From NCBI GenBank assembly GCA_020349885.1, contig CP070701.1:1061684-1125683 (forward strand): 64,000 bases of DNA, given 5' to 3'. Source of the DNA: Acidobacteriota bacterium. Its GTDB lineage: Bacteria; Acidobacteriota; G020349885. Every line of letters starts with the position of its first letter. Within the stretch, counting starts at the first letter, position 1. Positions 33-18,669 of this stretch are shown here, piece after piece. The position numbers and the translations under genes are program-made. The notes below the pieces were generated by a model. The model was not told the DNA's origin. It searched no databases and was given only the letters and a program-made list of their open reading frames with translations.

Positions 33-2366
33 ATGCCCGTTAGTGAAATGTTGGAGCGACAATACAACATCACGGCCCGGCCGGGAGGCCCGAATGTAGA
101 ATGCCCCAAGTGCGGCAAAAAAACCTTCTCCGTCATGAAGGATGACCGCTTCGGACAGTGTTGGCGACCAGACTGTGGATACACCATACTCTCAAGGCAG
201 GGAGAGAATGGGGGAGGGGGTAGTGCCCCCCCTGAAAACACTGCAAACGTGCAATCGCAACCCGCTTACAGAGTAAAGAAGCGATTGCAAGGCGGGTGCA
301 AACGCAGTGCAAACGAGAGGCAATCGCAAGGCGGTTTAACGCTTGAGGAATACGCCGAAGCCAAGCACCTACCCGTTGATTTTCTGCGCCGGATAGAGTT
401 GAGCACCATCCCTAACTATTGCGACCAGAAGGCGCTTCGCATTCCCTACCTTGACGCCAGCTGCAGGGCTGTAGCTGTCCGCTTCCGGCTATCCCTTGTC
501 AAGTCCAGCGATGGCGATAACCGCTTTCGGTGGCGAAGGGGCGACAAACCCTGCCTCTATGGGCTGTGGCGGCTGAAACAAGCGCGTGAAAACGGGAGCG
601 TAGTTTTGGTGGAGGGCGAGTCGGATGCACAGACGCTATGGTTCTACGGCATTCCAGCCCTTGGCATTCCGGGGTCGAATACGTGGCAGGAACCATGGGC
701 CGAATACCTTAAGGGTATTCCCGTCATCTATGTGGTGCTTGAGCCGGACAGCGGCGGCGAAGCCGTGCGGAAATGGCTCGCCAAATCCTCGATCCGCGAC
801 AAGGTAAAGCTCATCACCCTCGAAGGAACAAAAGACCCGTCAGAGCTACACGTTGCTAATCCCAAAGGCTTTCTGGAAGCGTGGCAGAAGGCCGTGGACG
901 CGGCGAAGCCCTGGACGGAGTTAGAAAAGGCGGAAATCAAGGCACGCAGGAAAGAAGCATGGCAAAAGTGTGAAGCGCTGGCACGGGAACCGAATATCCT
1001 TGAGCGATTCGCCGAAGCGGTGACGCAGGCGGGTCTTGTAGGAGAAACCCGTGCGGCCAAGCTTCTCTACCTTGCCTGTACAAGCCGCTTTTTAGAAAGA
1101 CCCGTCTCTGTGGTCGTCAAAGGACCTTCCGGTGGTGGGAAATCCTTTTTGGTGCAGAAGGTCTTGAGTTTCTTCCCCCAAAGCGCTTCCTACGTCTTAA
1201 GCTCCATGAGCGATAAGACACTGGCGTTTTCCAAGGAACCCCTTTCGCACCGGATGCTAGTGCTTTATGAAGCCGTTGGACTTGGGCAGGACTGGACAAG
1301 CTATTTTGTGAGGACCCTTTTAAGCGAAGGTCATGTGCGGTATGAATTCGTAGACAAATCAAAAGGAGGGCTCAAGGCACGTCTTATCGAACGAGAGGGG
1401 CCAACCGGACTCATCACCACGACGACCGCAATCCGCCTCGATGGGGAGTTAGAGACACGCCTTTTCTCGGTAGAGATTACGGATACCCCGGAACAAACCT
1501 ACCGCATTCTTATGGAACTTAACGAAGACAGGAATGGCATGGTTGATTTCGCTCCGTGGCACGCCCTTCAGAAGTGGCTTGAGGTGGTTGAGCATCGCGT
1601 AACCGTTCCCTTTTGGAAGGCGTTGGCACAAAGGATTTCCCCGGCGGCTACACGGATGCGCCGAGACGGCGGGGCTATCTTGGGTCTCATAAAAGCCCAC
1701 GCCATCCTGCACCATGAAAGCAGGAAGCGTGATAAGGAAGGACGCGTTGAGGCAACCCTCAATGACTTTGCCGCAGTACGCGAGCTAGTAGTTGATTTGA
1801 TTTCCCAAGGACAGGGAAGCTCCGTTTCAACGGTTGTCCGAGAAACGGTCGAAGCTGTGAAGGAACTCCTAGAAGCGGGGGCCGACGAGGTTACGGTTAA
1901 GCAAGTTGCACATCAACTAGGCCGAGACGAGTCCACGACATGGCGGCGCGTAAAGAAGGCTCTTTTCGGGGGCTATCTAGAAAATCGCGAGATGAAACCA
2001 AGGCGACCTGCGCGGCTAGTCATTGGAGCCCACTTGCCAGACGACCAGCCCGTGTTGCCTCCCGTTGAGGCGTTGCGCGATTGCATGGGCGATTGCACAC
2101 CGATTGCAGAGGGCGATGCAAACGCTACTACAGAGGGAGATTCGGTGAGCGATTGCACGATTGCACCGATTGCAGAAGGTATACCTACCCCCCTCCCACC
2201 TAAACCCGACAACTGGCCCGAACCGTGGCGGTCATCCTTTCAGGGACTGGTCAAGCATTATTTGGAAAAAGGCATGGGCGAAGATGAAGCGAAGCAATTA
2301 GCCGAACGCAAGCTCCGCGACGAACACGACGGTGGCAATAATGGCAAAGGGAGCAAGAATGCCTAA
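33..2366 (+). CDS. Primase/helicase-like replication protein of the element (zinc ribbon, TOPRIM, P-loop ATPase)
   Basis: A 777-residue protein. The N-terminus has a zinc ribbon (C24, C27, C43, C48) like those of DnaG-type and phage primases. A TOPRIM-like segment follows at about residues 187-270, with the acidic motif VEGESD near residue 195 and EPD near 236. A P-loop (GPSGGGKS) sits near residue 364, with a possible Walker B strand (LVLYEA) near 410. Residues 615-660 look like a helix-turn-helix. The arrangement fits a primase fused to an ATPase/helicase that starts replication of a mobile element; the ATPase subfamily is not recognised. The ATG has GGAGG four bases upstream. The linker after the zinc ribbon and the segment near residues 680-715 are low-complexity and encode the repeated GCGATTGCA motif annotated separately. 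Confidence 0.8.
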   Translation: MPVSEMLERQYNITARPGGPNVECPKCGKKTFSVMKDDRFGQCWRPDCGYTILSRQGENGGGGSAPPENTANVQSQPAYRVKKRLQGGCKRSANERQSQGGLTLEEYAEAKHLPVDFLRRIELSTIPNYCDQKALRIPYLDASCRAVAVRFRLSLVKSSDGDNRFRWRRGDKPCLYGLWRLKQARENGSVVLVEGESDAQTLWFYGIPALGIPGSNTWQEPWAEYLKGIPVIYVVLEPDSGGEAVRKWLAKSSIRDKVKLITLEGTKDPSELHVANPKGFLEAWQKAVDAAKPWTELEKAEIKARRKEAWQKCEALAREPNILERFAEAVTQAGLVGETRAAKLLYLACTSRFLERPVSVVVKGPSGGGKSFLVQKVLSFFPQSASYVLSSMSDKTLAFSKEPLSHRMLVLYEAVGLGQDWTSYFVRTLLSEGHVRYEFVDKSKGGLKARLIEREGPTGLITTTTAIRLDGELETRLFSVEITDTPEQTYRILMELNEDRNGMVDFAPWHALQKWLEVVEHRVTVPFWKALAQRISPAATRMRRDGGAILGLIKAHAILHHESRKRDKEGRVEATLNDFAAVRELVVDLISQGQGSSVSTVVRETVEAVKELLEAGADEVTVKQVAHQLGRDESTTWRRVKKALFGGYLENREMKPRRPARLVIGAHLPDDQPVLPPVEALRDCMGDCTPIAEGDANATTEGDSVSDCTIAPIAEGIPTPLPPKPDNWPEPWRSSFQGLVKHYLEKGMGEDEAKQLAERKLRDEHDGGNNGKGSKNA
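242..327. repeat. Iteron-like cluster 1 inside the primase gene
   Basis: Six related short motifs lie within 86 bases: TGCAAACG at 242, 297 and 308, TGCAATCGC at 250, GCGATTGCA at 281 (inverted relative to the one at 250) and GCAATCGC at 320. The same core recurs near the 3' end of the gene in other reading frames. Conservation of the DNA rather than the peptide suggests protein-binding sites such as replication iterons. This is inference. Confidence 0.5.
2077..2174. repeat. Iteron-like cluster 2 inside the primase gene
   Basis: CGATTGCA occurs six times in 98 bases, beginning at 2078, 2090, 2101, 2150, 2158 and 2167; three copies are the full GCGATTGCA. A shortened GCGATGCAAACG lies at 2113. 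The first three copies are 12 and 11 bases apart, close to one helical turn; the last three are 8 and 9 apart. Some copies are read as GAT-TGC and others as CCG-ATT-GCA. Confidence 0.5.
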
Positions 2367-2592
2367 AGCCGGACTTGAAGTACTCTCCATCGCTATTTTG
2401 AAGCGGCTGAGGACGATTCCTCAACTGGTGGTTGAGTATCCTGGGCTCTGCCCGTCGGAGGATTCCCTTCGTTGGCGACTTCGAATGCTCAAGGCTGATA
2501 TCGGCCCCGACTTAAGGGTGTGCGGAGTGTATAGAGATAGGAGAAAAATTCTCATTGACCCAGCGGTGTTTTTCAAGGAAGTTCTCCAATGA
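2359..2592 (+). CDS. Small basic protein of the element, possible excisionase-like DNA-binding protein
   Basis: The protein has 77 residues if it starts at the ATG at 2359, which has GGGAG five bases upstream and overlaps the end of the primase gene. In-frame ATGs at 2332 and 2341 lack such a site. It is basic, with a helical N-terminal half (AILKRLRTIPQLV) and a segment (SEDSLRWRLRMLKADIG) that could form a winged helix or MerR/Xis-like fold. Position between a replication gene and the integrase module fits an accessory DNA-binding protein. No family is recognised with confidence. Confidence 0.55.
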   Translation: MPKAGLEVLSIAILKRLRTIPQLVVEYPGLCPSEDSLRWRLRMLKADIGPDLRVCGVYRDRRKILIDPAVFFKEVLQ

Positions 2593-2606
2593 AAGAGCTA
2601 ATTAAC

Positions 2607-2621
2607 GGGCACAGCGTGCCC
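2607..2621. repeat. Short inverted repeat between element genes
   Basis: GGGCAC, a three-base loop AGC, then GTGCCC form a perfect 6-bp hairpin 14 bases after the stop of the preceding gene and just before the GGGGAGG at 2627. It lacks a T-tract, so it is more likely an operator or mRNA structure than a terminator. Confidence 0.3.
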
Positions 2622-2632
2622 ATAAAGGGGAG

Positions 2633-3055
2633 GTGTTACCGGATAATATGTATAGATTGAGAGCGCTTCAGATACGAAGATGTAAGGGCATCAAAAAGGA
2701 TGGGGAGCCTTGTGGAGGTTGGGCTATGTGGGGGCATCCAGAGCAATTGTGCAATATGCATGCGGGAGTTTGGAAGAAAAGGGACCCCAAAGCCCCTCGC
2801 CCTCCACGGCGAGCCCGGTCGGTCATTTGCCGTTGTGAAGCGTATAACTGGCCCCACCGTCCCGGGGGTGGGCTGTGCCGGTGGCCCGATCCACCGTTGT
2901 GGAGGCACCCGACTCCGGCAGGAACGCACTCGCCACATCGCAGGCGGTCGTGGGAGGAAATGCTTGCGTGGTGGGCCCTCACTCCTAGGCAAAGGTGGGC
3001 GATAAGGGAGGCGCAAAAAAGGAAGCGAAGACGAAAATCTCATTTTCCCGCTTGA
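2633..3055 (+). CDS. Small zinc-binding, arginine-rich element protein
   Basis: The frame is 140 residues from a GTG at 2633, or 135 from the ATG at 2648. GGGGAGG at 2627-2633 overlaps the GTG and is rather far (14 bases) from the ATG, so the start is uncertain. The N-terminal part has the pattern C-x9-C-x13-C-x2-H (RRCKGIKKDGEPC ... LCNMH), typical of small phage-type zinc-binding proteins of unknown role. A second cysteine/proline-rich segment follows, and the C-terminus is highly basic. It precedes the promoter of the ribbon-helix-helix/integrase pair. The function is unknown; nucleic-acid binding is a guess from charge and zinc motif. Confidence 0.55.
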   Translation: MLPDNMYRLRALQIRRCKGIKKDGEPCGGWAMWGHPEQLCNMHAGVWKKRDPKAPRPPRRARSVICRCEAYNWPHRPGGGLCRWPDPPLWRHPTPAGTHSPHRRRSWEEMLAWWALTPRQRWAIREAQKRKRRRKSHFPA

Positions 3056-3080
3056 CAAATACTTCAATATGCATTACAAT
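3052..3080 (+). promoter_or_regulatory. Sigma-70-type promoter for the RHH-integrase pair
   Basis: TTGACA at 3052-3057, a 17-base spacer and TACAAT at 3075-3080 make a near-consensus promoter. The predicted start of transcription (about 3087) lies three bases before the ATG at 3090, and this rules out the upstream in-frame ATG at 3069, which would lie in the spacer. Confidence 0.8.
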
Positions 3081-3083
3081 GCA
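3070..3083. promoter_or_regulatory. Palindromic operator candidate over the -10 element
   Basis: TGCATT-AC-AATGCA is a perfect 14-bp inverted repeat that covers the whole -10 hexamer of the promoter above. A dimeric ribbon-helix-helix repressor encoded immediately downstream is the obvious candidate ligand, giving autoregulation of itself and the integrase. Confidence 0.55.
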
Positions 3084-3089
3084 GGGCAG

Positions 3090-3263
3090 ATGGCAAGACG
3101 AAAGAAGAAGATTCGAACAAAGGACGCGCAGATCACTCTGCGTTTGAGTAGCACCCTTAGGAAGGCGCTGGAAGAGAAGGCCCGCGCCCGTGAGATTGAT
3201 CTTACAACCTACTGCCGCATGCTCCTCAAGCTCGGGGTGGATAAAGAGAAAAAAGAGAGGTGA
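3090..3263 (+). CDS. Ribbon-helix-helix (CopG/Arc-type) DNA-binding protein
   Basis: A 57-residue protein with a very basic N-terminus (MARRKKKIRTK), then a short strand and two helices (QITLRLSSTLRKALEEKA, DLTTYCRMLLKLG), the length and pattern of a ribbon-helix-helix domain. Such proteins bind palindromic DNA as dimers through the strand residues. The start was chosen at 3090 because the promoter occupies the bases upstream. It shares a transcript with the integrase, whose start overlaps or lies six bases after its stop. The likely role is transcriptional repressor or recombination directionality factor of the element; which one cannot be told from sequence. Confidence 0.75.
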   Translation: MARRKKKIRTKDAQITLRLSSTLRKALEEKARAREIDLTTYCRMLLKLGVDKEKKER

Positions 3264-3268
3264 TCCCC

Positions 3269-4327
3269 ATGCCACTATGGAAATTCGGAAAAGTTTGGCA
3301 CTATCGCACTCAGCGCAACGGACGGCGCTTCAGCGTCTCCCTCAAGACGAATGACAAGGCAGAGGCGGAGCGCCGAGCAGCCAAGATGCTGCGAGAAATC
3401 GAGAGCGGGGAGTTTGACGTAACCCAGCGAGGCATCCCGCTTGCCAGCGCCGCCAAGCGTTTCCTGGAGCAAATGAAGCCTCGATGGCACCCTGAAACTT
3501 GCCGATACCATGCCCTTCATATCAAGCACCTGCTCGATTTCTTCGGTCCGAACCTCACACTGGAAGCTTTCAACCGTAGGACAACGGCTGATTACATTAA
3601 GCACCGCAAGGCCTCAATAACGCGCCCTTCAAACGCCACTATTAACAAAGAAATCGGCACACTCTATCAAATGCTACACCAAATGACGGGAAGAAGGCAC
3701 AGCATCGAAAAACTCCCTGTAGACCGGAAACCTCAACGCCACCTTAGCTCCCAGGAAGAAGCCGACCTGCTCAAGGCATGTAGGAACGGCCACAGGGTTT
3801 CTCCCGACCTCTACGACGCGGTTGTGGTGTGCCTGGACACCGGCTTGCGGAGAGGCGAGCTTTTCCGCATCACGCCTTGGCACCTTGACATAGAAAACAA
3901 GCAGCTTACCGTGCCGATCTCGAAGACTCACCGGTTCAGAGTAATTCCCTTAACCCCCAGAGCGTTCAGCATTCTCGTGAATCGCGCCAAGACAAGGAGG
4001 GCTGATAAACCGGTCTTCTCGCACGAGGACGGCACACCGCACGTTGAATACCTAAGGATGCCCCTGGAAAGGGCGTATAAGAGGGCAGGGCTACCATCGG
4101 CACGGCCTTGGTACACGCTCCGCCACACCTTTGCCAATAAGCTGCTAAGGAAGGGTGCACCAATCTACGAAGTAAGGCTCTTGATGGGCCACACCACAGT
4201 CACGACCACGGAAATCTACGCTAACTTGCAGCCTCAAAATCTCCATGGGACAATAGGGCTGATAGCCGAAGAAGAGAGCGAAAAGTCCGGGGCAGTGGTT
4301 GAAAAACGGTTGAAACTGGTAAAGTGA
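3269..4327 (+). CDS. int: Tyrosine recombinase / phage-type integrase
   Basis: The protein has 352 residues from the ATG at 3269, which follows AGAGGTGA at good spacing; a GTG at 3260 overlaps the previous stop and is an alternative. There is an N-terminal arm-type domain (about residues 5-60), a SAM-like core-binding domain (70-150) and a catalytic domain (155-325). Active-site residues visible are Arg194 (TGLRRGEL), a Lys near 222 (SKTHRFR), Arg285-His286 (YTLRHTFA), the GH of LLMGHTT, and nucleophile Tyr317 (EIYANL). The first histidine of the HxxR box is Tyr here, as in many family members. It should catalyse integration and excision of the element. It abuts the 5' side of the tRNA-Arg, an uncommon orientation. 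Confidence 0.93.
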   Translation: MPLWKFGKVWHYRTQRNGRRFSVSLKTNDKAEAERRAAKMLREIESGEFDVTQRGIPLASAAKRFLEQMKPRWHPETCRYHALHIKHLLDFFGPNLTLEAFNRRTTADYIKHRKASITRPSNATINKEIGTLYQMLHQMTGRRHSIEKLPVDRKPQRHLSSQEEADLLKACRNGHRVSPDLYDAVVVCLDTGLRRGELFRITPWHLDIENKQLTVPISKTHRFRVIPLTPRAFSILVNRAKTRRADKPVFSHEDGTPHVEYLRMPLERAYKRAGLPSARPWYTLRHTFANKLLRKGAPIYEVRLLMGHTTVTTTEIYANLQPQNLHGTIGLIAEEESEKSGAVVEKRLKLVK

Positions 4328-4369
4328 CTGTGAGCGGATTTTTAAAAAGCTCTTTATTTATAGGCACTT

Positions 4370-4443
4370 GCGCCTGTAGCTCAATCGGATAGAGCAGCGG
4401 TTTCCTAAACCGCAGGTTGGGGGTTCAATTCCCTCCAGGCGCG
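4370..4443 (+). tRNA. tRNA-Arg (anticodon CCT)
   Basis: A full cloverleaf: acceptor GCGCCTG/CAGGCGC, D-arm GCTC/GAGC, anticodon stem GCGGT/ACCGC with loop TTCCTAA (anticodon CCT, reads AGG), variable loop AGGTT, T-stem GGGGG/CCCTC with one G-T pair around TTCAATT, discriminator G. CCA is not encoded. The bases just upstream are AT-rich and part of the element, with a TTATAG seven bases before the tRNA that may act as a -10. The tRNA ends four bases before the stop of the convergent hflX gene. Confidence 0.95.
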
Positions 4444-4447
4444 CCCT

Positions 4448-17505: not shown

Positions 17506-18669
17506 TTACCATAGCAGGTCCTTCACCCGCTTGAAAAGGCTCTTTCCGCCCACAGTCGCCTCTTCCTTGCGCAGTTCGGCCAAGCGCTCGTAGAGGTCGC
17601 GTTCCTCCTTGGAAAGGTCGGTCGGAACGTGCACGTTGACCGTGATGTACTGGCTGCCGCGCTTTCTTGCGGGACCCCGGGAGCCTTCGAGGGAGGGAAT
17701 GCCGCGCCTCTTCCACTCGAAGGTCTCGCCGGGCTGGGTGCCGGGCGGAACGGTGAGCTCGCCTTCCTTGCCCTCGAGGGTCGGAACCTTAACGAGGGTG
17801 CCCAGGGCGGCCTGCGGTGCGGAGAGGGTCACTTCGCACCAGATGTCGCCGCCGCGGCGTTCGAAAACGGGATGCTCGCGCTCATGGACTACGACGTAGA
17901 GGTCGCCGTTTGGACCGCCGTGTCGGCCGGCCTCACCCTTGCCCTGGAGGCGGAGCTGGCAGCCGTCCGAGACGCCCGCGGGCAGGCTTACACGCACCGT
18001 TTCCTCCTTCACGGTTTGTCCCGTGCCGTCGCAAATGCGGCACGCCTCGCGCACCACGCGTCCTTCGCCCCGGCACTTGGGACACGTTTGCACCATGGAG
18101 AAGAATCCTCGCTGGTACACTACCTTGCCCTGACCGTCGCAGGACGAGCAGGAGACGACGCCGTCCCGGTCCGCGGCGCCCGTGCCCCGACAGGAGGGGC
18201 ATGTGGTGCGCTTCGAAAGGGAAAGCTCTTTTTCGACGCCTGCCGCGGCTTCCTCAAGCGTAATCTCGAGGTCGTAACGGAGGTCGGCCCCGCGCTCGCT
18301 CCGGCCGCGCCCGCGCTGGCGCCTGCGGCCCAGGAGGTCGCCGAATCCAAACATCTCGGAAAACACATCCTCGAGTCCGCCGCCGAAGATGTCTTCAAAG
18401 TCGCGGAAAATACTCGCGTCGAAGCCCCCACCGGCTTCCGCGCCCGGGCGCACACCGGCATGGCCGTAGCGGTCGTAGAGCGCGCGCTTCTTGTCGTCTC
18501 CCAAGACGCTGTAGGCCTCGGAAGCTTCCTTGAAGCGTGCCTCGGCATCGCTGTCGCCTGAGTTGCGGTCGGGGTGGTACTTTAAGGCCAGCCGCCGGTA
18601 GGCTTTCTTAATCTCGGCTTTCGACGCGTCCCGCGAAACGCCCAGAATTTCGTAGTAGTCTTCCGCCAT
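17506..18669 (-). CDS. dnaJ: Chaperone protein DnaJ
   Basis: A 387-residue type I J-protein. It has a J domain at residues 1-68 with HPD (LKYHPDRN), a Gly/Phe-rich segment with FGFGDLLGRRR, four zinc-finger repeats (CPSCRGTG, CSSCDGQG, CPKCRGEG, CRICDGTG) at about 150-215, and the C-terminal substrate-binding domains. It stimulates DnaK ATPase and delivers unfolded proteins. Reading could extend upstream to 18759, but MAEDYYEILG is the canonical start and a TATAAT lies six bases before it. dnaK and grpE are not in the window. Confidence 0.96.
   Translation of the reverse strand: MAEDYYEILGVSRDASKAEIKKAYRRLALKYHPDRNSGDSDAEARFKEASEAYSVLGDDKKRALYDRYGHAGVRPGAEAGGGFDASIFRDFEDIFGGGLEDVFSEMFGFGDLLGRRRQRGRGRSERGADLRYDLEITLEEAAAGVEKELSLSKRTTCPSCRGTGAADRDGVVSCSSCDGQGKVVYQRGFFSMVQTCPKCRGEGRVVREACRICDGTGQTVKEETVRVSLPAGVSDGCQLRLQGKGEAGRHGGPNGDLYVVVHEREHPVFERRGGDIWCEVTLSAPQAALGTLVKVPTLEGKEGELTVPPGTQPGETFEWKRRGIPSLEGSRGPARKRGSQYITVNVHVPTDLSKEERDLYERLAELRKEEATVGGKSLFKRVKDLLW

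Follow-up and report, generated by a model that had tools for sequence, protein, structure and literature searches.

Satellite phage P4 encodes an alpha protein that is primase, helicase and initiator at once; its iterons are found at two separate sites (ori and crr), and an origin lies inside the alpha gene. The domain order of P4 alpha differs from that of the protein studied here, and the likeness we draw is to the general description of that system. In lambda, the origin sits midway along gene O, and additional iterons there bring additional residues into the O protein (PMC7466680). In PICIs and SaPIs, two sets of iterons stand on either side of an AT-rich region directly 3' of rep (PMC6092414), and the Streptomyces plasmid pWTY27 carries 7–8 bp repeats, in both orientations, that are recognised by Rep and lie beside a primase/polymerase gene (PMC3583192).

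The locus compared here with these systems lies in a 64-kb stretch of an Acidobacteriota genome, all of which was analysed (hereafter the window). Its rep gene (33–2366, + strand) encodes a 777-aa protein with a zinc ribbon, a TOPRIM primase, a P-loop ATPase and a C-terminal winged helix, identified from the open reading frame, phage primase/helicase families, DnaG/T7 primase folds and winged-helix profile matches. The protein matches are to TOPRIM primase families, and the TOPRIM/primase part covers residues about 103–290 (339–902, + strand), as indicated by alignment and by a fold like that of DnaG/T7 primase. The winged-helix (wHTH) segment (residues 618–652; 1884–1988, + strand), which we propose as the reader of the repeats described below, shows MarR-like profile matches, correlates with the repeat letters and is ordered in the structure model (AlphaFold2), a shallow one (six sequences, mean pLDDT 63).

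The 2.3-kb rep gene is followed by a CopG-like small regulator (3069–3263, + strand; Pfam match below cut-off, E 3.6e-5), the tyrosine integrase of the element (3260–4327, + strand; Pfam Phage_integrase, E 5e-20) and a tRNA-Arg(CCT) found by ARAGORN (4369–4446, + strand), in the border region of the element. Exactly 100 N adjoin the left edge of the window (L007:14901–15000), a scaffold gap in a genome whose listing gives a single contig. Because the window begins at this gap, the left part of the element is missing from the assembly. The 36 kb upstream showed no att repeats of the tRNA, and an Rfam search returned the tRNA only, with no family matching the modules described below.

Two opposed repeat modules inside rep

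Two short clusters of an 8-bp repeat lie within rep, as the preliminary description had reported, and each is bordered by an outer G/C block that had escaped it. Read from the outside inwards, a G-rich block comes first, in most cases followed by a C-run; after a spacer of about 8–20 bp stand two to three tandem 8-bp repeats with the core TGCAA, which in the modules of the window take the form TGCAAnCG. On the left, the block GGGGGAGGGGGTAGTGCCCCCCC (210–232, + strand), which aligns with the blocks of relatives, precedes cluster 1 (242–327, − strand), whose repeats lie at 242−, 250−, 282+, 297−, 308− and, as GCAATCGC, 320−, and read mainly TGCAAnCG on the + strand. On the right, cluster 2 (2078–2174, + strand) has repeats at 2078+, 2090+, 2101+, 2117−, 2150+, 2158+ and 2167+, mainly CGATTGCA on the + strand, and is followed by a block (2179–2197, − strand; the GGTATACCTACCCCCCTCCC region, GGGAGGGGGGTAGGTATACC on the other strand) that is the mirror image of the left one in the block alignment. 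In net orientation, cluster 2 is inverted relative to cluster 1, which had also been missed, and the modules point towards each other, separated by ~1.75 kb encoding TOPRIM, ATPase and wHTH. An inverted pairing as good as this arose in 2 of 2000 synonymous shuffles. Within a pair, the spacers between block and repeats differ, as do the repeat numbers (6 vs 7 in the window).

The places originally assigned to the clusters hold: one module lies between the zinc ribbon and TOPRIM, and the other near the C-terminus, after the winged helix. The peptides that they encode (residues about 70–99 and 682–714) are of low complexity, as had been claimed, and fall in or at stretches that are disordered in the model (residues 28–98 and 686–723, pLDDT <50). 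No AT-rich melting region adjoins the clusters; GC content is 0.53–0.61 around both, and the lowest-GC stretches lie elsewhere.

The exact octamer (CGATTGCA/TGCAATCG) is present at eight sites (250−, 282+, 2078+, 2090+, 2101+, 2150+, 2158+ and 2167+), all inside rep and none elsewhere in the 64-kb window. Together with GCAATCGC at 320, which keeps seven of the eight letters, these make up the roughly nine copies counted in the preliminary description, while four more sites, with CGTTTGCA (242−, 297−, 308− and 2117−), had gone unnoticed. The synonymous-codon shuffling of rep that it had proposed (n = 2000) yields a mean of 0.56 CGATTGCA sites (maximum 3) against the 8 observed, and 0.87 sites of CGWTTGCA (maximum 4) against 12. 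Outside rep, CGWTTGCA has a single site in the window, at 18085. Nor is the motif common in the host, because GCGATTGCA has 15 sites in 2.4 Mb and five of these are within rep. A lone CGATTGCA ~19 kb upstream is a single copy with no cluster around it.

The repeat copies occupy all three codon phases, and the readings given earlier (CGA-TTG-CA, CGC-GAT-TGC and CCG-ATT-GCA) are correct; the 8-bp period alone suffices to rotate the reading frame. That protein coding does not explain the motif is borne out by the codon shuffles, the use of three frames, the disordered peptides and the retention of module and position across phyla (see below). As such, a function of the clusters at the DNA level rather than the protein level is strongly supported.

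As in lambda and lambdoid phages, the repeats are embedded in the stretch that encodes the initiator; there they have been shown to bind it, and here binding is predicted. Lambda O (PMC7466680) was indeed an apt precedent for embedded iterons, and it also differs from this locus in several ways. Lambda has a single cluster of longer iterons in mid-O, beside an AT-rich tract, and O is not a primase-helicase, whereas this rep has two opposed modules with 8-bp repeats and a G/C block, and no AT-rich tract. The likeness to PICIs and SaPIs lies in the integrative element with int, xis and a primase/rep gene and in the two iteron sets, but the sets here are inside rep, where they flank its catalytic part, and have no AT-rich region. 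In pWTY27, the repeats lie in non-coding DNA beside the rep genes, in contrast to their position inside rep here. Embedding is common to this locus and lambda, and two sets are common to it and PICIs; the repeats lie in coding sequence, and their letters vary among relatives while the layout is kept, with one weak exception (L049). We class the locus as one that would work like an embedded iteron origin and place it in neither family, because the AT-rich region of lambda and PICIs is missing and the repeats are not located as in PICIs.

The module in relatives and phages

Relatives were sought by genome searches, in which single-sequence queries found none and a two-sequence alignment did. They are few, come mostly from metagenome assemblies, belong to several phyla and show 36–52% protein identity; in the alignment, the values against the window protein are 36–51%. 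The paired layout recurs among them with repeat letters specific to each element, L049 excepted. For example, L017/L050 (Acidobacteria UBA2161) has a G-block followed by ACGAACACTCGAACACC in the linker; beyond the wHTH the arrangement returns as its mirror image, and the inverted match spans 51 columns. In L131, from the same phylum, the linker consists of the block plus TGCAACCG TGCAACGC, and the tail of GGTTGCAG GGTTGCAA plus the block. L048 (FCPU426) carries CACTGCAACTGTGCAAC in the linker, where the block is only a short GGGGAATCCCC. The exact inverse of CACTGCAACTGTGCAAC, 17 bp long, stands at the N-terminal end of the gene, and there is no tail module. L047 (Actinobacteria) shows the left module only, because the contig ends before the tail, and L049 (Proteobacteria) has only a weak tail pair.

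When regions picked after the pattern was seen were shuffled synonymously, a pairing as good arose in 0 of 2000 shuffles for L017 and for L048, 17 of 2000 for L131 and 1476 of 2000 for L049. The L049 pair is not significant, and the paired-layout rule therefore has one exception. Counts of 7- and 8-mers in the relatives have low power, with few copies each, and a whole-gene test of the longest repeat is significant for L048 only and borderline for L017. No module is present in 68 viral primase relatives of other architecture, whose linker–tail pairs score ≤11. Conservation in close relatives, on which the preliminary description would have had the motif stand or fall, speaks for it in an altered form: the relatives have lost the exact octamer but retain the class of module, its positions and the inverted pairing, except in L049.

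Two relatives encode the zinc ribbon in an ORF of its own (L047:4691–4990 and L049:4649–4993), which runs into the beginning of the TOPRIM-ATPase ORF; in L047 the junction between the two is a G-tract, GGGGGGGAGGGGG.

Searches with DNA patterns only are independent of the choice of regions made for the shuffle tests. The first pattern, GGGGAGGGGN{12,40}TGCAANNNTGCAA, is derived from the modules of the family, contains no protein information and has 11 matches in viral contigs. One of these, L140, adds a full-length member to the family, at 44% identity, and its linker and tail modules match inversely over 50 columns. A second pattern retrieved L140 again and another full-length member, L159, with an inverted linker–tail match of 38 columns. 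In 396 Acidobacteriota genomes, the first pattern has one match, in this rep gene, and the reversed control pattern has none. Core pairs spaced by 8 bp are found in the L140 (15.6 kb) and L159 (11.2 kb) records at the linker and tail modules only, and both records carry terminase large-subunit genes.

The second pattern also identified five independent phage contexts (G545, G547, G548, G549 and G551) with a very similar module between genes or at their edges, and phage copies occur singly. The module of G545 has an O-like replication initiation gene ~0.5 kb away on one side and terminase genes on the opposite side, and those of L164 and L166 are near terminase small-subunit genes. The module-bearing phage records, which may be fragments, yielded no member of the Rep family, and a 51-bp module had no BLAST match among annotated phages. 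In phage contigs without the Rep family, the module (G/C block plus TGCAAC) lies at L150:90–133, L164:3141, L165:6202, L166:866 and L167:13027, close to terminase or an O-like initiator gene. Two other matches to the second pattern (L151 and L154) look like terminator hairpins or chance. In L139, a phage DNA methylase-like ORF (1673–2744) contains an in-frame repeat, GINRQIPHLGNKGR, beside a likely chance pattern match.

Candidate functions of the modules

The best reading of the clusters is that of iterons embedded in an initiator gene. Because distant relatives keep the places of the modules while the repeat letters change, these are probably the replication origin of the element or a binding site of its initiator, set in floppy parts of the protein. 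We favour, as reasonably probable, a reading in which two opposed modules of G/C block and TGCAA iterons, located in the initiator gene of an integrative element, are bound by Rep, which would assemble the primase-helicase after excision. Specifically, we infer that Rep would bind the iterons of both modules, most likely via its C-terminal winged helix, and that following excision this binding would assemble the primase-helicase on circular DNA; assembly at the modules would then initiate the replication of this excised DNA, or hold it back. The opposed orientation may serve two-directional loading, or bridging of the modules for copy control, and the G/C block may act as a strand signal or a structure. 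Because the modules are placed at disordered linkers, their DNA would be free to diverge together with the DNA-binding domain and leave the enzyme unharmed. Counting against the embedded origin are the lack of an AT-rich region at the modules, the weak pair in L049, the location of some phage copies near terminase genes and the 1.75-kb spacing between the modules, which is wider than in known paired iteron sets.

The modules may instead be operators for autoregulation or copy number, through which Rep or an element repressor blocks or loops rep transcription, with the origin elsewhere, e.g. in the part lost to the gap. Sites that flank the gene body in opposite orientation do resemble looping operators, and both the absence of an AT-rich region and the missing left end of the element fit this explanation. 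However, operators are expected near the promoter rather than in the tail, and the L140 and L159 records have no other repeat pair to serve as origin, though an origin need not share these repeats; overall, we consider operators unlikely.

The proximity of phage copies to terminase small-subunit genes in L164 and L166, and the terminase large-subunit genes in the L140 and L159 records, are what would be seen at a packaging (pac/cos) site, or at another phage site read by terminase or a host protein. Such a site is improbable here, since one copy suffices for it and an inverted pair locked into rep is not needed, the repeat letters vary by element, and the G545 copy is near an O-like initiator gene.

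As inverted copies, the modules are necessarily complementary, and a long-range helix, of RNA or single-stranded DNA, that joins a 5' portion of the rep transcript to a 3' portion could control its translation or decay. We regard this as very improbable, as the spacers and repeat numbers differ within a pair, phages carry single copies, no Rfam family matches, and local folding is unremarkable, with strong block hairpins only in L131. Finally, a functionless expansion by slippage in tolerant linker DNA, which would suit low-complexity, disordered peptides where repeats are tolerated, is scarcely credible and contradicted by the comparative evidence, i.e. the same module, orientation and position with different letters in relatives at 36–52% identity, and the retrieval of the gene family by a DNA pattern alone.

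Repeat recognition and other embedded arrays

Returning to the embedded origin, repeat similarity correlates more closely with the identity of the wHTH segment (rho 0.70) than with that of the protein body (rho 0.46) among seven proteins compared in non-independent pairs, and these values become 0.48 and −0.20, respectively, without L017. In L017, a deviant repeat core (TCGAACAC) occurs together with a deviant helix. With so few proteins and pairs of this kind, the correlation is a lead, not proof, that the winged helix reads the repeats. The pattern suggests a family of related recognition domains, in which the core is kept, the other letters vary and the L017 core is altered.

More tentatively, the locus could represent a distinct class of bipartite origin, with opposed modules in the two disordered linkers of a zinc ribbon–TOPRIM–ATPase–wHTH initiator. 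In such a class, gene and origin would form one unit, iteron letters and wHTH would diverge together, and the module would be common to phages without the gene. If the modules are indeed embedded origins, the low-complexity linkers of such replication proteins would be explained as control DNA read as protein, and the sequence signature may allow origin and initiator specificity to be predicted for uncharacterised integrative elements of uncultured phyla. The family would also offer a natural series of initiator–iteron pairs for the study of specificity.

Viral proteins (L046, L051 and L052) share the TOPRIM half, at 47–49% identity; in L046 another helicase half follows it, a case of domain shuffling behind TOPRIM. 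Further TOPRIM-helicase genes of the phylum have repeat arrays of other kinds in the C-terminal tail: CGATTTCC/GGAAATCG with a CCCCCCAGGGGG block in L043 (tail of ORF 958–3093), and GAGGTTCC-type repeats in L041 (tail of ORF 1039–3234). These arrays suggest that embedded repeats are more general than this gene.
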